This document shows, one piece after another, positions 4,307 through 17,084 of a DNA stretch of 20,458 nucleotides. Every line of letters starts with the position of its first letter. Position 1 is the stretch's first letter. The notes beneath the pieces are model-generated. The model saw only the letters and a program-made list of their open reading frames with translations. It ran no database searches and was not told the origin of the DNA. Source of the DNA: a virus. The stretch covers positions 1-20,458 of the IMG/VR virus record IMGVR_UViG_3300021185_000292. One strand, 5' to 3'. The translations under genes and the position numbers were made by a program.

Positions 4307-4541
4307 AAGAAAAAATAACGGAGGTAATAAAAATGCTGGTCGTAAAAGTAAATCTGAAGAAGTTAAGATGATTGAAAGACTTACACCATTAGAACCAAAA
4401 GCATTTAAAGCACTTGAGAAAGGAGTTGAAGAAGGGAACTTCAAATACGTTCAAATGTTTTATAACTATTATGCTGGTAAACCAAAAGAAACAAAAGATA
4501 TATCAATTACATCAGAGCAACCTTTATTTGATTTAGATTAG
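4293..4541 (+). CDS. terS: terminase small subunit (putative)
   Basis: An 82-aa basic-to-acidic protein directly upstream of terL. The N-terminus (MKEDKRKNNGGNKNAGRKSK) is the Gly/Asn/Lys-rich arm commonly seen in small terminase subunits of Bacteroidota phages. A helical region follows (LEPKAFKALEKGVEEGNFKY) and then the short YYAGKPKE segment near residue 60. It is short for a TerS, and no full helix-turn-helix is evident, so the call leans on position and the N-terminal arm. It would bind the packaging start site on phage DNA and hand it to TerL. It overlaps the nuclease gene by 14 bases and terL by one (TAGTG). Confidence 0.7.
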   Translation: MKEDKRKNNGGNKNAGRKSKSEEVKMIERLTPLEPKAFKALEKGVEEGNFKYVQMFYNYYAGKPKETKDISITSEQPLFDLD

Positions 4542-5707
4542 TGTTTCAAGTTACAACTGCAATAAAGAAACTTTATAAGTTAAAGAAAAGAAAGAAAGTA
4601 ATTCAAGGTGGTACATCAGCTGGTAAAACATTTGGTATACTGCCTATACTTATTGATAGATGTATAAGAACACCAAACACAGAAACAAGTGTAGTATCTG
4701 AATCAATACCACATTTGCGTAGAGGTGCTATGAAAGACTTTCTAAAGATTATGATAGCAACCAATAGGTTTAGAGATAGTCAATGGAATAGGTCTGCTTT
4801 AAAGTACACATTTACAAATGGTAGTTACATAGAATTTTTTAGTGTTGAACAACCAGATAAATTAAGAGGAGCAAGAAGAAACGTATTGTATGTAAACGAA
4901 GCAAACAATGTACCCTTTGAAGCATACACACAATTAAGTATTAGAACATCTGGAGATATATGGATTGACTTTAATCCAACTGCAAACTTTTGGGCGCATA
5001 AAGAAGTTGTAGGCAACGATGATGCAGACTTTATTACATTAACATACAAAGACAATGAAGCATTACCAGAAACGATTGTAAACGATATAGAAGCTGCAAG
5101 AGATAAAGCAAAAGATTCTACTTACTGGAGCAACTGGTGGAAAGTATATGGTCTTGGACAAATAGGAAGTTTAGATGGTGTATGTATTCCAGATTGGAAA
5201 GAGATTAAACAACTACCAACAGAAGCAAGGTTATTATGTTACGGAATGGACTTTGGTTATACAAATGACCCAACAACATTAATTGGTTTATACAAATACA
5301 ATAACACTTATATTTTAGATGAGGTTATACATCAAACTAAATTACTAAACGTAGATATATCAAACATACTTAAACAACTTAATATAGATGATATAATATA
5401 TGCAGATTCAGCAGAGCCAAAATCAATTGCAGAATTAAGAACATACAGACATAAAGTAATGCCAGTTAAAAAAGGTAAAGATTCAATTGTATATGGTATC
5501 AACTTAATAAATCAAAATGATATCTATGTAACCTCAACAAGTAAAAATCTAATTAAAGAATTACAAAGTTATAGTTGGATGAAAGATAGAGAAGGTAACA
5601 CTATTAACAAACCAATTGATGCTTTTAACCATTGTATTGATGCAGCACGTTATGCAATTACATCACAGTTAAGTAGTCCAAACAAAGGTAAATACAATAT
5701 AAGATAA
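4541..5707 (+). CDS. terL: terminase large subunit
   Basis: 388 aa, the DNA-packaging motor and nuclease. ATPase half: Walker A-like GGTSAGKT at 23-30, Walker B LYVNE at 116-120, and the coupling segment WIDFNPT at 141-147. Nuclease half: acidic residues at the three expected places, D237 (GMDFGY), D289 (YADSAEP) and D367 (HCIDAARYA). Length and motif spacing fit the Terminase_3/Terminase_6 group (PBSX XtmB type). The start is GTG at 4541, sharing its G with the terS stop (TAGTG). No in-frame ATG precedes the Walker A motif, so GTG is required. Unlike the usual order, no portal gene follows; the next module encodes tail proteins and the portal lies 12 kb away. Confidence 0.96.
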   Translation: MFQVTTAIKKLYKLKKRKKVIQGGTSAGKTFGILPILIDRCIRTPNTETSVVSESIPHLRRGAMKDFLKIMIATNRFRDSQWNRSALKYTFTNGSYIEFFSVEQPDKLRGARRNVLYVNEANNVPFEAYTQLSIRTSGDIWIDFNPTANFWAHKEVVGNDDADFITLTYKDNEALPETIVNDIEAARDKAKDSTYWSNWWKVYGLGQIGSLDGVCIPDWKEIKQLPTEARLLCYGMDFGYTNDPTTLIGLYKYNNTYILDEVIHQTKLLNVDISNILKQLNIDDIIYADSAEPKSIAELRTYRHKVMPVKKGKDSIVYGINLINQNDIYVTSTSKNLIKELQSYSWMKDREGNTINKPIDAFNHCIDAARYAITSQLSSPNKGKYNIR

Positions 5708-5866: not shown

Positions 5867-5882
5867 GTATTATATATATATG
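5867..5882 (+). promoter_or_regulatory. AT-rich repeated motif, copy 3
   Basis: GTATTATATATATATG, identical over 16 bases to copy 6 at 17069-17084. Its last three bases are the start codon of the tail chaperone gene. It follows the terL terminator, so a new transcript must start very close to here if the unit is expressed on its own. Confidence 0.48.
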
Positions 5883-6533
5883 AAGATTGAAATAAACGTA
5901 CCAACATCATTAAGTGAAGTTACATTAGGACAATATCAAAAGTTCTTAAAGATAGCAGAAGATAATCCAGAGGGTAATTTCTTAAATGCTAAAATGATAG
6001 AAATATTTTGCGGAATACCTTTAAGTGATAGCTACAAATTAAAGATGAGTAGTGTTATTGCTATTATAGATATACTTAATGAATTGTTAAGTCAAACACC
6101 AAAAAGGGTAGAGCAGTTTACAATGAATGGTGTTCAGTATGGATTCATACCAGACTTGGACGAAATGAGTTTAGGAGAATATGTAGACTTGGATGGTAGT
6201 GCAAGTGATTGGAACAATATGCACATTGCAATGAATGTATTATACAGAAAAATAAAAATAAAGAAATCTGGTAAATATAATATAGTTGATTACAATGTAG
6301 AGAATCCAGAGAAGATGAAAGATATGCCTTTAGATGCAGCAATTGGGTCTTTGTTTTTTTTTTACAATTTAGGAATGGAACTGTCGAAGCATACGATACT
6401 CTCTTCCAACAATCTGGAGGAAATGGAGGTTTATCAAGATCAGCTAATTTCTCAAACAAATGGGGATGGTATCAGTCAATTTATGGTCTCGCTAACGGAG
6501 ATATTACAAGATTTGAAAATATCACTAAATTAA
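5880..6533 (+). CDS. tail assembly chaperone, short (frame 0) product
   Basis: 217 aa, starting at the ATG that ends motif copy 3. The N-terminus (MKIEINVPTSLSEVTLGQYQ) and the following helical region are of the kind seen in tail assembly chaperones of Bacteroidota phages, the counterparts of lambda gpG. The frame passes through a run of ten T at 6354-6363 (codons Leu-Phe-Phe-Phe-Tyr) and then continues 56 residues, ending in NGDGISQFMVSLTEILQDLK plus ISLN. After the T run the -1 frame is also open for 84 codons, giving a longer product. The call rests on this frameshift architecture and the place at the head of the tail module. Its partner would be the tape measure protein (11294-13180), unusually 4.7 kb downstream. 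Confidence 0.76.
   Translation: MKIEINVPTSLSEVTLGQYQKFLKIAEDNPEGNFLNAKMIEIFCGIPLSDSYKLKMSSVIAIIDILNELLSQTPKRVEQFTMNGVQYGFIPDLDEMSLGEYVDLDGSASDWNNMHIAMNVLYRKIKIKKSGKYNIVDYNVENPEKMKDMPLDAAIGSLFFFYNLGMELSKHTILSSNNLEEMEVYQDQLISQTNGDGISQFMVSLTEILQDLKISLN
6356..6362 (+). other. slippery heptamer for -1 ribosomal frameshifting
   Basis: Ten T occupy 6354-6363. In the chaperone frame they read TTT TTT TTT T(AC), so T TTT TTT at 6356-6362 is a perfect X XXY YYZ slip site. After slipping back by one base the next codon is TTA (6362-6364) and the frame stays open to 6616. A hairpin of seven pairs (6402-6408 with 6415-6421, loop of six) lies about 40 bases downstream, farther than stimulatory structures usually are. 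Confidence 0.72.
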
Positions 6534-6616
6534 ATATTCATCAATGCTTTACAATGTTATCATTTATGAAAGAGAAAGCAGAGCTGGAAGCAAAACAAAT
6601 AAAAAGTAAATTCTAA
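6362..6616 (+). CDS. -1 frame extension of the tail assembly chaperone (GT-like)
   Basis: This 84-codon stretch is in the -1 frame relative to the gene at 5880. Joined at the T run it gives a 245-aa product: 161 shared residues plus LQFRNGTVEAYDTLFQQSGG, then about 20 residues, then KWGWYQSIYGLANGDITRFE and a charged helical end (MKEKAELEAKQIKSKF). It stops with TAA at 6614-6616, sharing its last A with the ATG of the next gene, as expected for a real gene end. The KWGWYQSIYxLAxGD segment is what I would expect of the extension (T part) in related phages. By analogy with lambda gpGT, the long form would be made in a small amount and would bind the tape measure and tube proteins. I see no separate start codon that would fit; ATG 6562 lies too far in. 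Confidence 0.76.
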   Translation, partial: LQFRNGTVEAYDTLFQQSGGNGGLSRSANFSNKWGWYQSIYGLANGDITRFENITKLNIHQCFTMLSFMKEKAELEAKQIKSKF

Positions 6617-7071
6617 TGAAGGGTTTTTATCAAGTAACGGAAACAATAAAGAATCAATTATTATCAGATGTAAACGTTAATAATGTAACAACTGGAGATA
6701 TCACAAAGATTGATTTAAGTAAACAAACAATGTTTCCTTTATCACACATAATTGTAAATAATGTAAATAACGAAGATAATGTATTACGTTTCAGTTTATC
6801 TGTTTTGTCTATGGATATTGTTGATGTTTCAAAAGAAGCAACAGTAGATATTTTTAGAGGTAATGATAATGAGCAAGACATATTAAATACTCAATTAGCA
6901 GTACTTAATAAATTAGCACAAGTATTAAGAGGAGGTACATTACACCAAGATTTATATCAGTTAGATGGCACACCAAATTTAGAGCCTTTCTATGATAGGT
7001 TTGAAAATGAATTAGCTGGATGGGCAATGACATTTGATGTTCTTGTAAATAACGATATCAATATATGTTAA
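6616..7071 (+). CDS. putative tail completion/terminator protein
   Basis: 151 aa. The start ATG 6616 overlaps the stop of the frameshift extension (TAATG). Notable segments are NNVTTGDITKIDLSKQTMFP (about residues 22-41), followed by SHIIVNNVNN, and the end GWAMTFDVLVNNDINIC. Proteins of this shape and size occur next to the HK97 gp10-like protein in flavobacterial phages, where they are taken to cap or complete the tail. The fold cannot be decided by eye. It overlaps the next gene by seven bases. Inference from position: a neck or tail terminator protein acting where head and tail join. Confidence 0.62.
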   Translation: MKGFYQVTETIKNQLLSDVNVNNVTTGDITKIDLSKQTMFPLSHIIVNNVNNEDNVLRFSLSVLSMDIVDVSKEATVDIFRGNDNEQDILNTQLAVLNKLAQVLRGGTLHQDLYQLDGTPNLEPFYDRFENELAGWAMTFDVLVNNDINIC

Positions 7072-8721: not shown

Positions 8722-11163
8722 ATGCAAAAAATACAACTATACATAGAAGGTCAAAGAGTAGATTTATTTGAAGATGAAAGTGTTGTATTAACGCAATCTA
8801 TTCAAAACGTAAAAGACATCAGTAAAATATTTACTGAATTTACAAGAACGTTTGCAATACCAGCATCAAAAACAAATAACAAGATCTTTAAACACTATTA
8901 TAATTTTAGTATTGGGGATGGTTACGATGCAAGAATTAAAAAACAATCAACACTAGAACTAAACAATCTTTCTTTTAAAGAAGGGTTGATAAAACTAAAT
9001 GGTGTTAAGTTAAAGAATAACGTACCTCATACATACAATATTACTTTTTTTGGAAACACTATAAATCTAAAAGACGTTCTTGCTGATAGTCAGTTATCAT
9101 CTTTACAAAAATTAAATGACTATAATAAAATTTATAGTTTTGATGATGTTACCGATGCAATGCAGAATGCTGAAAATAGTGGTAATATTATAGTTCCTTT
9201 AATCACACATACAAACAGATTAATTTACGATAGTGGAAGCCACGTTAATTTTCCTCCTAATCCAGATTTAGGTATAAGAAATATATCACATCAAGGAACT
9301 GGTACACATAATCAAAATGGTGTTGAATGGAATCAGTTTAAGTATGCAATAAAAGTACAAGCAATAATAGATGCTATACAATCAGAATCTTTTGTTGGTG
9401 GTCAAACATTAACTTTTTCAGATGACTTTTTTAATGATAATACAAATGAAGAATTTGATAATTTGTTTTTATGGTTGCATAGAAAAAAAGGTGATGTAGA
9501 TGCACCATCACAAGTATTACAAAAATTTACACAATTAACAGAGTTAGGAACAACTGTTTGTGTACCAACTAATAATTGTCAACCATCAACATCAAATGTT
9601 TTAAATGGTGTTTTAGCATTAACTGCCCAATCTCCTTATAGCATATCTTTTTTAAATCTAAATGTAACACCTCCAAATACAACAGATGCATATACAATAA
9701 GAGTTATCAGAGATGGCTCAACAATAGTAGGAGAAACAACTGGTACTGGAGCAAAACAATTAATAATAGTACCTTATAATAATAGCACATACACAATACA
9801 AATTGCATCATCAACAAATATGACTTTTGCAACTGGTAGTATTCAATGGTCTGTATCTTGGACTCAAGGAGGTTTAGGCTTTGGACAAAACGGACAAATG
9901 GTTTATTCAAATGCATCTCCATTTATTACAACTGCTTTTAAAGACTTTAACATAAACGAGCAGATGCCTAAAATGACTATTATAGATTTTTTAACTGGTC
10001 TTTTTAAAATGTTTAATTTAACTGCTTATGTAGATAATGATGGGATTATTGTTGTAAAAACTTTAGATAGTTATTATGCATCTGGCTCAACAACACCAAT
10101 TGATATAAGTAAATACATCGATACAGAAAATTCAACTGTTGATGTGGCATTACCTTTTAAACACATTGATTTTACATACAAAGGTTTAGGAACTTTTTTA
10201 TCTAAACAATTTGAACAATTAAACAATCAAAAATGGGGGTCTTTATCTTATAGTTTAAATTCAGATATATTTGATGCACCAAGTAAATCATATAAACTAG
10301 AATTACCTTTTGAGCATATGCAATATGAAAGACTTTATGATGTAGATGGGGGAAGTGCAACAAGTGTTCAATGGGGTTACTTTGTAGATGACAATCAAGA
10401 GCCTTACTTTGGCTCTCCTTTATTATTTTACCCTATTAGACAATCATCATCAACATCAATAAGAATAAGAGATACACAAACAAGTAGTGTTGAAGATATT
10501 ACAGATTTCTATATACCATCAAATGCTTTGGCTTTAACATCAACTGCAAGTAAATCTAATATACATTTTGGTAATGAGATAAACGAGTATCAAGCAAATC
10601 AACCAGCAGTAGATCCTTTGGCTTTTACAGATAGTTTATTTGAAACTAATTACAAGACTTATATTCAAGATGTTTTTAATGCAAGAAGAAGAATAACAAA
10701 AGTAAGTGCTTATTTACCATTCGGTCTTTACTATAATTTGAAGCTAAATGATTTAGTAAAATTTGGAGAAAATGCTTATAAAATAAACTCAATAAAAACT
10801 AATTTAAAAACTGGTAAATCAGACTTTGAGTTATTAAATGACGTTACATCAATATTAACATCAACTGGTAATACTCCAACACAAGTTACCGGATTAGTTG
10901 CATCAAATATAACAAGTACATCATTTACTGTTACTTGGAATGCAAGTACATCTCCAGATAATATTACAATGTCCTATTATGTTGTTTATGCAAATGGTGT
11001 AGCAGTTGGTGGGTCAATGGCACAACCTTTACAATCAACTTATTCAGATGACATTACTGGATTAAGTCCAGCAACATCATATTCAATAACAGTAGTTGCT
11101 TATGATATTTTATTAAATGAATCAACACCATCTGGTGCATTAGTAATTAACACATTACCATAA
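8722..11163 (+). CDS. large tail/baseplate protein with C-terminal fibronectin type III domain
   Basis: 813 aa. The N-terminus (MQKIQLYIEGQRVDLFEDES) and the next 120 residues (QNVKDISKIFTEFTRTFAIP, then NITFFGNTINLKDVLADSQL) look like the start of tail-tip proteins common in phages of Bacteroidota. The middle is beta-rich, with much N, T and S. Residues from about 718 to the end form a fibronectin type III domain: TPTQVTGLVASNITSTSFTV, a Trp after TV, YYVVYANGV, then ITGLSPATSYSITVVAYD. FN3 domains at phage tail tips are thought to help adhere to carbohydrate or cell surfaces. Likely role: tail tip or fibre-carrying protein that contacts the host. Its stop overlaps the ATG of the next small gene. 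Confidence 0.72.
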   Translation: MQKIQLYIEGQRVDLFEDESVVLTQSIQNVKDISKIFTEFTRTFAIPASKTNNKIFKHYYNFSIGDGYDARIKKQSTLELNNLSFKEGLIKLNGVKLKNNVPHTYNITFFGNTINLKDVLADSQLSSLQKLNDYNKIYSFDDVTDAMQNAENSGNIIVPLITHTNRLIYDSGSHVNFPPNPDLGIRNISHQGTGTHNQNGVEWNQFKYAIKVQAIIDAIQSESFVGGQTLTFSDDFFNDNTNEEFDNLFLWLHRKKGDVDAPSQVLQKFTQLTELGTTVCVPTNNCQPSTSNVLNGVLALTAQSPYSISFLNLNVTPPNTTDAYTIRVIRDGSTIVGETTGTGAKQLIIVPYNNSTYTIQIASSTNMTFATGSIQWSVSWTQGGLGFGQNGQMVYSNASPFITTAFKDFNINEQMPKMTIIDFLTGLFKMFNLTAYVDNDGIIVVKTLDSYYASGSTTPIDISKYIDTENSTVDVALPFKHIDFTYKGLGTFLSKQFEQLNNQKWGSLSYSLNSDIFDAPSKSYKLELPFEHMQYERLYDVDGGSATSVQWGYFVDDNQEPYFGSPLLFYPIRQSSSTSIRIRDTQTSSVEDITDFYIPSNALALTSTASKSNIHFGNEINEYQANQPAVDPLAFTDSLFETNYKTYIQDVFNARRRITKVSAYLPFGLYYNLKLNDLVKFGENAYKINSIKTNLKTGKSDFELLNDVTSILTSTGNTPTQVTGLVASNITSTSFTVTWNASTSPDNITMSYYVVYANGVAVGGSMAQPLQSTYSDDITGLSPATSYSITVVAYDILLNESTPSGALVINTLP

Positions 11164-11306
11164 TGATAAAAGAAATATTAGAATTGTTAAAAGATACAGA
11201 TTGTAATGCAGAGATTGTACAATTAGCAAAAGGAAAGAATAAGTTTCCAGATAGTTTTAAAGAAGTATTTAAAAGACAAAAACAAGAATTAAAATGGAAA
11301 AAATAA
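11163..11306 (+). CDS. small hypothetical protein before the tape measure (47 aa)
   Basis: ATG at 11163 overlaps the preceding stop (TAATG), and the stop TAA at 11304-11306 lies 13 bases inside the tape measure gene. It begins MIKEILELLKDTDCNAEIVQ and ends in a strongly basic stretch (RQKQELKWKK). It looks helical and soluble. It fills what would otherwise be a 130-base gap in a tightly packed operon, which is the main support. Unknown function; possibly a small tail assembly helper. Confidence 0.6.
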   Translation: MIKEILELLKDTDCNAEIVQLAKGKNKFPDSFKEVFKRQKQELKWKK

Positions 11307-13180
11307 TAGTAGAGTTAGAAGCAAAAACTGACAAGGCTTTAAAAGGTATTGACAATGTTGCAAAGAGTGTTGAAGATTTAAACAAAGAGGTAGTAAGTTC
11401 AAATCAAGATACTGCTAAATCTTTAAAGAATGTTGAAACATCTTCTGGACAAGCTGCGAAAGGTATAAGAGGTATTGGTAATGCTATAAAGGCTGCTGGT
11501 ATTGGATTAGCAATTGCTGCTTTTGCTACACTAAAAGATATATTTATGCAGAATCAAAAAGCTGCTGATTTATTCAATACATCATTTGAAGTTGTTAGTA
11601 TTGCTTTTAATGATTTTGTTGGCTTTATTGTAGATAATAGTACGAAGGTAACAGACTTTTTTAAATCTATATTTGATGACCCTAAACAAGCATTAATAGA
11701 TTTTGCTGATGCATTTAAGAAAAACATTCAAGAAAGATTTGAAAGTTATTTAGATACTCTTGGATTTTTAGCAAGTGCAGTAAAGAAAGTATTTAGTGGA
11801 GATTTTGCTGGTGCATTAGAAGATGTAAAAAGTGCTGGTAAAGAATCATTAGATGTTTTAACTGGTGTTAATGATACCTTTGATAAAAGTGTTGACATTG
11901 TTAATAGTAGCGCAGAAGCTATTTCAAATTATGCAAGTGAAACTGTTAAAGCTGCAAAGGGTAATGTAGAATTAGCAAAGTCTGCTGAATTAGCAGCAGT
12001 ACTAAATCAAGGATTAGTTGAAAAGTATGATAGACAAGCAGAACAATTAAGACAAATAAGAGATGATGAAAGTAAGAGTATTGAAGATAGAATAAAAGCT
12101 AATGAAGAACTTGCTTTAGTATTAGATGAGCAAGAAAAAGCAATGAAGGAAAATGCTGCTATTGCAGTTGCATCTGCTGCTGCTGAATTATCAAAGAACA
12201 AAGATAATATAGAATTACAAAAAGCATATCAAGAAGCACTTAACGAACAAGCAGCTATTGAAGCACAAATAACTGGTTTCAGAAGTGAGCAACAAACAAA
12301 TACAAATTCTTTATTAAGAGAACAAAAAGAAATAATGAATGAGATTGCTCTTTTTGGTAAATCAGAAAGAGATAAAGAAAGATTAGAATTAGAGCAACAA
12401 TATGAAGCAAACAAGCTTTTAATAGAAAAAGAAATTACTGATGATGCAGAAAAGAAAGAAAGATTACTTGCTTTACAAAAAGATTACAATGCACAATTAA
12501 AGGAAGTAAATGATGGTTTTGCACAAGAAGATTTAGAAAAATCAATAGAATTTGCTAATCAACAAATTGCATTAGAAGAAAATATAGCACAAAGAAAAAG
12601 AGAAATAAATATGCAGTATATTGGTTTTGCCTCTGGTTTAAGTGGGTTATTGCAACAAATAGCTGGTAAAAATAAAGCAATTGCTACTGCTGGTTTAATA
12701 CTAGAAAAAGGAGCTGCTATTGCTAACGTAGTAATTGGAGCAAGTCAATCTATTGCGTCTGCAAAATTTAATGAATCTAAAATACCATTCTTTATTCCAA
12801 CTCCAACTGGTATTCCTCTTTTTAATCCATTAAAACCAGCATCTTTAGCTGCAACTGCAAAATCAATAGCAATGACAAAGATTGGTGCTGGATTAGCAAT
12901 AGCTGGTATTGGTGCTACTGCAATTGGTCAAGTAAGTGGAGTATCTGGTGGTAATGTAGATACATCTAAACCACCTACCCCACCTACTCCTTCTGTGCCA
13001 ACTGCTCCATCTACACCTCCAGCATTTAATATAGTTGGTCAAAGTGGTACAAATCAATTAGCATCAGCTATTGGTGGACAATCACAACAACCAATACAAG
13101 CATTTGTAGTTTCAAGTGAAGTATCAACTGCACAAGAATTAGATAGAAATATAATTGAAGATGCAAGTATAGGAGGTTAA
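11294..13180 (+). CDS. tail tape measure protein
   Basis: 628 aa, Ala/Lys/Glu/Gln-rich and almost wholly helical. An N-terminal coiled-coil-like part (MEKIIVELEAKTDKALKGID) is followed by a hydrophobic stretch at about 66-80 (KAAGIGLAIAAFATL), a long central charged coiled coil (about 235-435, many E/K/Q/R heptads), and hydrophobic segments at about 438-487 and 514-546 (Ala/Gly/Ile-rich). A Pro-rich linker (about 558-576) comes before a short polar tail. This is the standard pattern of a tape measure. It sets tail length inside the tube and helps DNA pass into the cell. At the usual 1.5 Å per residue the tail would be roughly 95 nm, a rule-of-thumb estimate. It follows the large tail protein and ends the tail module. 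Confidence 0.85.
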   Translation: MEKIIVELEAKTDKALKGIDNVAKSVEDLNKEVVSSNQDTAKSLKNVETSSGQAAKGIRGIGNAIKAAGIGLAIAAFATLKDIFMQNQKAADLFNTSFEVVSIAFNDFVGFIVDNSTKVTDFFKSIFDDPKQALIDFADAFKKNIQERFESYLDTLGFLASAVKKVFSGDFAGALEDVKSAGKESLDVLTGVNDTFDKSVDIVNSSAEAISNYASETVKAAKGNVELAKSAELAAVLNQGLVEKYDRQAEQLRQIRDDESKSIEDRIKANEELALVLDEQEKAMKENAAIAVASAAAELSKNKDNIELQKAYQEALNEQAAIEAQITGFRSEQQTNTNSLLREQKEIMNEIALFGKSERDKERLELEQQYEANKLLIEKEITDDAEKKERLLALQKDYNAQLKEVNDGFAQEDLEKSIEFANQQIALEENIAQRKREINMQYIGFASGLSGLLQQIAGKNKAIATAGLILEKGAAIANVVIGASQSIASAKFNESKIPFFIPTPTGIPLFNPLKPASLAATAKSIAMTKIGAGLAIAGIGATAIGQVSGVSGGNVDTSKPPTPPTPSVPTAPSTPPAFNIVGQSGTNQLASAIGGQSQQPIQAFVVSSEVSTAQELDRNIIEDASIGG

Positions 13181-13204: not shown

Positions 13205-13219
13205 TATTATATAATTATG
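13205..13219 (+). promoter_or_regulatory. AT-rich repeated motif, copy 4
   Basis: TATTATATAATTATG in the 36-base gap between the tape measure and the protease gene; the last three bases are the protease start codon. No terminator precedes it, so it may add transcription inside a longer unit or help translation start. Confidence 0.45.
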
Positions 13220-14215
13220 AAAATAATAGAACTTATTTTAGATGATGATGAAGCAATAGGAGTGGAAGCTATTTCTGTTGTTGAGAATCCAGCAATTGAA
13301 TCTGATTTTGTTGCACTTAATAAACAAGAAATTAAACTTGCTGAAATAGACAAAGAGAAGCGTTTGTTAATGGGTGCTTTACTTATACCAAAAAAACCTA
13401 TTTACAGAAAGTCTGGAGAAGATGAGTACTATATTTTCTTTTCTGAAAAGACTGTTGAGAAAGCATCTCAAATGTATTTGATGAATGGAAATCAATCTAA
13501 TTCAACACTAGAACACAATTCAGAATTACAAGGATTAACACTTGTTGAAAGTTGGATAGTTGAAGATAAACAAAAAGATAAAAGTGCTTTATATAATTTA
13601 GATGTACCAGTTGGAACTTGGATGGGTAGTGTTAAAGTAAACAATGATGAAGTTTGGAATGACTATGTAAAGACTGGTAAAGTAAAAGGGTTTTCAATAG
13701 AAGGTTACTTTGCTGACAAGATGGAAAGACCAAATGAAGAACTAAAAGAACACTTGATGAAATATCCTCACACTATGTATGATCCTAAAACTGGTGCAAG
13801 TGTTAAGATAATGACAAAAGAAGAACACGACAAGTACACAAATAAAGGTTGGACTCATAGCAAACCAAAACAATACGAAGAAGAATTAGCATCATATACA
13901 GACTATCCACAAGGGGCAACAAACAATGCAAAGAGAGCATTAGCTTGGGTAGAGAAAAATGGCTGGGGAAGTTGTGGAGAAGCAACTGGAAAGAACAGAG
14001 CAAATCAATTAGCAAAAAGAGAGCCAATAAGCAGAGATACAATTGCTAGAATGGCATCATTTAAAAGACATCAACAACATAAAGATGTACCTTATTCAGA
14101 AGGGTGTGGTGGTCTTATGTGGGATGCTTGGGGAGGTACTGCTGGTGTTAATTGGGCATCAAGAAAGTTAGACGATTTAGAGAAACTAGAAGAACTTAAA
14201 AAACTATTATCATAA
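13217..14215 (+). CDS. XkdF-like prohead protease with two extra C-terminal domains
   Basis: 332 aa. Residues about 50-165 match the XkdF-type phage serine protease of the S78 kind: H100 in STLEHNSELQG, ESWIVEDKQKDKS (111-123), PVGTWMGSVKVNNDEVW (131-147) and GKVKGFSIEGYF (154-165) with S160 as the likely nucleophile. It would cut the scaffold and capsid precursor during head maturation. Residues about 179-217 (MYDPKTGASVKI, then H204 and KGWTHSKP) form a small second module. Residues 226-320 form a third with DYPQGATNNAKRALAW (229-244), NGWGSC (248-253), GKNRANQLA (258-266) and EGCGGLMWDAWGGTAG (295-310). I have seen both added modules in other Bacteroidota phage proteins but know no function. 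The ATG is supplied by motif copy 4. Confidence 0.8.
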   Translation: MKIIELILDDDEAIGVEAISVVENPAIESDFVALNKQEIKLAEIDKEKRLLMGALLIPKKPIYRKSGEDEYYIFFSEKTVEKASQMYLMNGNQSNSTLEHNSELQGLTLVESWIVEDKQKDKSALYNLDVPVGTWMGSVKVNNDEVWNDYVKTGKVKGFSIEGYFADKMERPNEELKEHLMKYPHTMYDPKTGASVKIMTKEEHDKYTNKGWTHSKPKQYEEELASYTDYPQGATNNAKRALAWVEKNGWGSCGEATGKNRANQLAKREPISRDTIARMASFKRHQQHKDVPYSEGCGGLMWDAWGGTAGVNWASRKLDDLEKLEELKKLLS

Positions 14216-16453: not shown

Positions 16454-16981
16454 ATGGCTTGTTTACTTACATCTGGTAGAGCTTTACCTTGTAAAAGTAG
16501 TGTTGGTGGCTTAAAAGCAGTTTATTTCGCAGATTATGGTACGTTGGGAACAACTACAATAGCATCTGGAGAGATTACTGCAATTGCTGGTACACCAGAC
16601 TTCTTTAGATTTGACATCAAAGGTAATTCTTCACTAGAAACCACAATTAATAGTTCGAGAGAAAACGGAACTACATTTTACACACAAACTTTAAATTTAA
16701 CTTTACCAGTTTTAGATAAAGCTACACAAGAAGAAATAAAATTATTAGCTACTGCACGTCCACACGTTGCAATAGAAGATTACAATGGTAATTTCTTTAT
16801 GGTAGGTTTAGAACACGGAGCAGAGGTAACTGGAGGTACAATTGTATCTGGTGCTGCAATGGGAGATTTAAGTGGATTCACTCTAACGTTAGAAGGTCAA
16901 GAAACTGACCCAGCATTTTTTGTAACATCAACTGTTATTACTGATAACGAAAGTTCAGCACAAATAGACCCTAACGCATAG
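16454..16981 (+). CDS. major tail tube protein (putative)
   Basis: 175 aa, beta-rich. The start (MACLLTSGRALPCKSSVGGL, then KAVYFADYG) is characteristic of tail tube-type proteins in Bacteroidota phages. The rest has alternating polar and hydrophobic strands (FFRFDIKGNSSLETTINSS, TTFYTQTLNLTLPVL), a helix (ATQEEIKLLATA) and a Gly-rich hairpin (MVGLEHGAEVTGGTIVSGAA) near the C-terminal third. It stands alone between two terminators right after the capsid gene, which suggests an abundant product. A short A-rich leader precedes ATG 16454. It has no sheath neighbour, in line with a non-contractile tail. Another virion protein with the same fold cannot be excluded. Confidence 0.72.
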   Translation: MACLLTSGRALPCKSSVGGLKAVYFADYGTLGTTTIASGEITAIAGTPDFFRFDIKGNSSLETTINSSRENGTTFYTQTLNLTLPVLDKATQEEIKLLATARPHVAIEDYNGNFFMVGLEHGAEVTGGTIVSGAAMGDLSGFTLTLEGQETDPAFFVTSTVITDNESSAQIDPNA

Positions 16982-17006: not shown

Positions 17007-17038
17007 AAAGGTAGTCTTAATTGATTACCTTTTTTTTT
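17007..17038 (+). terminator. rho-independent terminator after the tail tube gene
   Basis: GGTAGTC (17010-17016) pairs with GATTACC (17023-17029) with one G-U pair and loop TTAATT, and flanking AAA (17007-17009) can pair with TTT. Nine T follow (17030-17038). It lies 25 bases after the tail tube stop. Confidence 0.85.
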
Positions 17039-17068: not shown

Positions 17069-17084
17069 GTATTATATATATATG
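17069..17084 (+). promoter_or_regulatory. AT-rich repeated motif, copy 6
   Basis: GTATTATATATATATG, the same 16 bases as copy 3. It ends in the start codon of the gene at 17082 and lies 30 bases after a terminator, so it probably opens the portal unit. Confidence 0.48.

Follow-up and report, generated by a model that had tools for sequence, protein, structure and literature searches.

The stretch of DNA analyzed here, hereafter the window, is the entire IMG/VR virus record IMGVR_UViG_3300021185_000292 (20,458 bases), and the genes of the locus described below lie on its plus strand. The terminase large subunit gene (terL; 4541-5707) is directly followed by an open reading frame (ORF) of 217 codons (5880-6533), the product of which would be the short, G-like, default form of a two-form gene and has homologues throughout the family. 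The frame crosses a run of ten T's at 6354-6363, within which a T_TTT_TTT heptamer lies in phase at 6356-6362. The last codon of the run is TTT at 6360-6362, which ends a 161-residue N-terminal part common to both predicted products (5880-6362), with homologues that are 28-100% identical to it.

Past the run, frame 0 remains open for 56 codons and a stop (6363-6533), whereas the -1 frame, entered at 6362, is open for 84 codons up to a TAA at 6614-6616, giving a predicted fusion product of 161 + 84 = 245 residues. The -1 tail (6362-6616), which would be the T-like part, carries a KWGWY motif and is predicted to be all-helical, and the frame-0 tail is dual-coded with it. The -1 stop shares one base, as TAATG, with the ATG (6616-6618) of the next gene (6616-7071), which encodes a 151-residue protein with no assigned function. 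The original prediction had placed the run, its in-phase heptamer, the lengths of both open frames and the TAATG junction exactly so, and all are correct on direct reading. It had also placed the gene right after terL and 4.7 kb ahead of the tape-measure gene. This order is confirmed, with the candidate for the latter being a tape-measure-like or virion structural protein (11294-13180; phrog_21537, virion structural protein, plus weak tape-measure matches) whose gene begins 4.7 kb downstream, beyond four intervening genes.

The +1 frame is closed two codons past the run by a TAG (6370-6372), a stop found at the same place in 206 of 226 homologues. This stop is forced by the two readings of the site, Leu-Gly in frame 0 and Phe-Arg in frame -1, and is therefore no evidence on the mechanism of the shift.

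Elsewhere in the window, a second long T-run (T9, 17030-17038) is intergenic, lying between the gene at 16454-16981 and that at 17082, and is possibly related to a terminator. A 332-residue protein (13217-14215) matches head maturation protease families in its N-terminal part and another family, phrog_2859, in its C-terminal ~100 residues. The label of DNA methyltransferase on one of its matches looks like a library misannotation.

Conservation of the run and of the frame relation

IMG/VR was searched for relatives once with the shared part and once with the -1 tail, which returned 324 and 392 matches, respectively. Further queries, built from more remote members and from alignments, then enlarged the set to at least 599 matches. 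No minimum run length was imposed; one search pattern held two Phe codons, in degenerate form, and another lay outside the run. The 347 distinct sequences analyzed are those for which both halves were found, comprising IMG/VR contigs and the Nonlabens phages P12024L and P12024S. Protein identity within the family falls to about 28%.

The family belongs to marine Flavobacteriaceae phages. The two Nonlabens phages, which have a Flavobacteriaceae host, are the sole matches among annotated phage records (~30% identity). Four GTDB genomes also contain the gene, namely Galbibacter pacificus, a Winogradskyella metagenome-assembled genome (MAG), a Flavobacteriaceae MAG and a contig binned to an Epsilonproteobacteria MAG; all four junctions have T9 or T10 followed by the -1 tail. 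The Galbibacter pacificus copy sits on an 871-kb contig and is likely a prophage. The contig in the Epsilonproteobacteria bin (L298) has a Flavobacteriaceae-type phage gene, so that either it is misbinned or the host range is wider, probably one of the two.

The second half of the gene is in the -1 frame in 347/347 distinct homologues, and the longest homopolymer of the junction zone is always a T-run of nine (n = 176), ten (n = 163) or twelve (n = 8) bases, never shorter. An in-frame T_TTT_TTT is present in every one. Among contigs >90% identical to the window, 32/32 have exactly T10. Median tail lengths are 56 codons in frame 0 (typically 53-83) and 84 in frame -1 (typically 82-91). Homologues having one tail only had been named as grounds against the original prediction. 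In general both tails are there, with the qualification that the frame-0 tail is reduced to 15-24 codons in an Inhavirus-type clade and to 6 in a single contig (L042, 1136-1666). The latter retains T10 and the -1 tail, which suggests that this phage can do without a long frame-0 tail or that its contig contains an error.

The codons of the slip site, numbered such that c5 is the Tyr or Trp codon after the run, vary in a restricted manner. c3 is TTT in all 347 sequences; c2 is TTT, GTT, CTT or ATT; and c4 is TTT (219), TTG (75) or TTC (53), with at least 12 parsimony changes of state on a FastTree tree of 340 sequences. The upstream codon c1 ends in T in 127/127 sequences when c4 is not TTT, versus 42/213 when it is. 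A downstream run that is broken is thus always matched by a T-ending codon upstream, restoring an all-T site one codon earlier, and among the homologues examined U_UUU_UUC or U_UUU_UUG at c2-c4 never stands as the only site. This compensation argues that an unbroken T-run is selected, not merely U_UUU_UUN. In ten sequences (at least three parsimony changes) the run is directly followed by C, and all ten have TTT before it, which is only suggestive as regards mechanism. Elsewhere, A-runs of at least nine bases are avoided, with 25 observed where a first-order model expects 156, and T-runs of that length number 38 observed against 50 expected, yet the T-run of this gene is present in every member.

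The family displays the marks of two kinds of slippage: an unbroken A/T run of at least eight bases with a kept frame relation, as in transcriptional slippage (T9, T10 or T12 in 347/347), and an in-phase X_XXY_YYZ heptamer, as in ribosomal frameshifting, in the window and every homologue.

Selection on both frames

Divergence was measured on pairs of sequences with shared parts 75-90% identical. Third-base identity at 4-fold degenerate sites is 0.55 in the shared part and 0.56 in the part read only in the -1 frame, and rises in the overlap to 0.82 (frame 0) and 0.85 (frame -1). At codon positions 1, 2 and 3, divergence is.154,.097 and.401 in the shared part versus a flattened.132,.191 and.200 in the overlap. 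Together, the raised 4-fold identity and the flattened profile indicate that both overlapping frames are under selection. When the window was synonymously resampled with one protein fixed, the other frame rarely stayed open (frame 0 in 2.4% of draws, frame -1 in 0.6%), so that the double open frame exceeds chance expectation.

What the alignments show is a pair of selected, overlapping frames joined by a -1 shift at an invariant run, as in lambda-type G/GT genes. The gene almost certainly yields two products from one start, as judged from these sequence patterns. The proposal of two forms with a common N-terminus made by programmed -1 recoding is therefore well supported: conservation extends to both tails, the frame relation never varies and the -1 tail of the window has no other start.

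Possible mechanisms of the slip

Frame 0 would account for most expression and give the 217-residue form, whereas a minor fraction would shift one base back at the T9-T12 run to give the 245-residue form, sharing its first 161 residues with the short form before continuing into the 84-residue helical tail. We propose that the slip is mainly transcriptional, with RNA polymerase inserting one extra U as it stutters along the T's, after which ordinary ribosomes read on in the -1 frame; ribosomal slippage on U_UUU_UUU may contribute some of the product. Following the lambda G/GT model, the two probable chaperone forms would be required at a set ratio. On the sequence patterns above, slippage by the polymerase rather than the ribosome appears somewhat more probable than its opposite, and for the explanation as a whole we would put the probability at roughly 0.55.

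The properties of a known polymerase fit this scheme. The E. coli enzyme begins to slip at 7 T, yields about 5-10% insertion product at T7/T8 and favors T to A (PMC6260861). The frequency of polymerase insertions grows exponentially as the run lengthens, and most insertions are of a single base (PMC5574713), which is the direction required for the -1 frame here. A homopolymer of at least eight has been described as the mark of transcriptional realignment (PMC3711429). Given these figures, transcription across runs of T9-T12 should slip often enough to serve a G/GT-type ratio, if the host polymerase resembles that of E. coli.

The principal competitor, which we regard as a serious though somewhat less probable account, is a classical programmed -1 ribosomal frameshift in which two tRNA-Phe slip in tandem on U_UUU_UUU with no stimulatory structure. 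Lambda G/GT and tested tail-chaperone genes frameshift in this way (PMC5009743), and frameshifting of 6-7% has been measured (PMC3711429). The in-phase U_UUU_UUU found in every run keeps ribosomal slippage possible everywhere and has to be counted against the polymerase. The minimum length of nine, which we considered as a discriminator between polymerase and ribosome, is not decisive, as hydrophobic and aromatic flanking codons add T's; it could represent seven required T's plus those of the codons on either side (Val, Leu, Ile or Phe before; Tyr, Trp or Phe after). On the other hand, U_UUU_UUC and U_UUU_UUG are never the sole site, though such variation at the Z base would be expected of a ribosomal signal, and the X and Y bases do not vary at all across very divergent homologues. 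Moreover, U_UUU_UUU is reported to be much less shift-prone than A_AAA_AAG in E. coli (PMC5009743).

A downstream stimulatory structure is common in -1 ribosomal frameshifting, if not obligatory, and the original prediction had pointed to a hairpin about 40 bases from the run. This hairpin proved not to be a family feature. In 60-nt windows at 12 offsets across 45 diverse members, no excess stability was found near the run (mean z -0.33 to +0.21), and an RNAalifold consensus of 16 members predicted 0 conserved pairs around it. Because neither analysis found a conserved hairpin or pseudoknot, the conserved design does not include a stimulatory element. Shine-Dalgarno pairing, too, is little used in hosts of this class (PMC8710568).

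Slippage by the polymerase is slightly favored, since no member relies on U_UUU_UUC or U_UUU_UUG and no stimulator is present. Of the predicted ribosomal -1 slip, then, the in-phase heptamer stands in all members, but an unbroken T9-T12 run with no stimulator fits transcriptional slippage at least as well.

Identity of the protein

The gene likely encodes a tail (tape-measure) chaperone, because of its two-form design, its location among virion genes and one named fold match. No functional name was obtained from Pfam, NCBIfam or PHROGs, and neither sequence nor fold comparison with the PDB gave a significant match to known chaperones. For structure prediction, the two halves were folded separately rather than as the 245-residue fusion. 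The AlphaFold model of the 217-residue form has a mean pLDDT of 79.5, with a confident shared domain that has no PDB match, and the -1 tail is modeled as all helical at low-to-moderate confidence. A Foldseek search of viral models (BFVD) returned I6R9M9 of P12024S together with many unnamed phage proteins. Only one of the matches has a functional name, A0A8S5V8Z8, a 'tail assembly chaperone', and it is weak at E 0.03 despite a probability of 0.99.

In the same database, several single-ORF phage proteins of 226-267 residues match both the shared-domain and the -1-tail models (for example A0A6J7WDG4, A0A516L5A8 and A0A6J5N0W0), as do the single-ORF proteins A0A6J5SVK3 and A0A6J5MY57. Judging by these models, they likely represent lineages in which the fusion is encoded without a slip.

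A further fold match is R9VW65 of Flavobacterium phage 6H (E 1.2e-4), which we paired by length with an ORF at 10352-10927 of that genome (L300). This ORF gives a weak profile match (29% probability), and a second ORF lies in the -1 frame without an open overlap. The locus (10044-10927, minus strand) consists of a 191-residue ORF followed by a 305-nt unannotated gap with a 105-residue open frame in -1 phase; the latter opens just past a TTTTTTC, and a TAG closes it in between. It is possible that this is a diverged version of the gene or the product of a sequencing error.

A two-form gene need not be a tail chaperone, and it might encode another assembly factor, for instance a neck protein, with either slip mechanism. 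The missing functional family match would agree with this, as would the location of the gene, which directly follows terL and precedes the tape-measure candidate by four genes, unlike the lambda order; a tail chaperone gene is usually, if not by strict definition, flanked by those of the major tail protein and the tape measure. We nevertheless consider such a role unlikely in light of the two-form -1 architecture, the helical tail and the match, weak as it is, to an annotated tail assembly chaperone. The original assignment as tail assembly chaperone thus remains the best reading, tempered by the lack of a functional family name, the E value of its fold match and the unusual gene order.

Two further alternatives concern whether there is a fusion at all. 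The -1 tail could be a separate protein with its own start, as annotated in P12024L, where ORF 41 starts at TAATG. This is very improbable, and for the window we reject it: there is no ATG, GTG or TTG in the first 36 codons of the -1 frame, an ATG occurs in that stretch in merely 10/347 homologues, natural single-ORF fusions are indicated and the run itself is invariant. Finally, a sequencing or assembly indel or a phase-variable homopolymer, with a single real frame at any time, has a negligible probability: T10 in a low-GC phage is a typical error spot, but the one continuous frame envisaged in the original prediction for a run of 9 or 11 T does not apply to homologues that hold the same -1 relation in 347/347 independently assembled sequences, with T10 unchanged in all 32 near-identical contigs and selection on both frames.

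When mechanism and identity are combined, it is a tentative proposition, with slightly less than an even chance, that this widespread group of Flavobacteriaceae phages sets the ratio of two tail-chaperone forms by polymerase stutter on a conserved poly-T run rather than by a ribosomal frameshift, with two selected C-terminal tails sharing one stretch of 55 codons. In hundreds of phage genomes, among them P12024L and P12024S in GenBank, the gene is annotated as a single hypothetical protein or as two unrelated ones; the signature of poly-T plus KWGWY permits its correct annotation. The ~55 codons that are read twice, with conservation of both products, also provide a clear natural case for the study of overlapping genes.

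Comparison with known systems

The gene resembles the lambda G/GT tail assembly chaperones (Xu, Hendrix and Duda 2004; reviewed in PMC5009743) in having one start, a -1 shift near the 3' part and a place among virion-assembly genes. Both would also produce a short, abundant form and a longer, minor form with a separate C-terminal tail, deduced here from sequence. They differ in the slip site, which is of the GGGAAAG type in lambda and a pure T9-T12 here, and in gene order, with the gene here lying directly after terL; there is no detectable sequence homology. By analogy, then, the resemblance would be one of architecture, with no detected homology on which to rest common descent. The dual-coded stretch after the slip is 55-56 codons, compared with a SEA-PHAGES average of 26 nt (PMC10885494). 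What is new here is the strictly poly-T site, the ~55-codon dual-coded overlap and the possible slip in transcription, the kind of gene itself being already known.

The closest annotated relatives are those of the Nonlabens phages P12024L and P12024S (Inhavirus), in which a homologous gene adjoins terL, has a CTT TTT TTT TAT run (T9) and carries KWGWY in the -1 tail. They differ from the window in their identity of about 30% and in a frame-0 tail of 24 codons. In P12024L (JQ823123.1; L151, 10001-10695), the frameshift gene is split between P12024L_40 and P12024L_41, annotated as separate, unrelated hypothetical proteins with no frameshift; P12024S_38 and P12024S_39 divide it in like manner.

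With genes known for programmed transcriptional slippage, namely Thermus dnaX (A9), Shigella mxiE and spa13, and IS elements (PMC1088944, PMC5009743), the gene shares an unbroken A/T homopolymer of at least eight bases, no need for flanking structure and a fused second frame. Those are not phage tail genes, and here the run is of T and the slip is predicted from sequence. We found no earlier report of transcriptional slippage for tail chaperones in the literature searched. If it is the polymerase that slips, two-form assembly control in tailed phages would have been reached by two molecular routes, as reported for dnaX in Thermus and E. coli.
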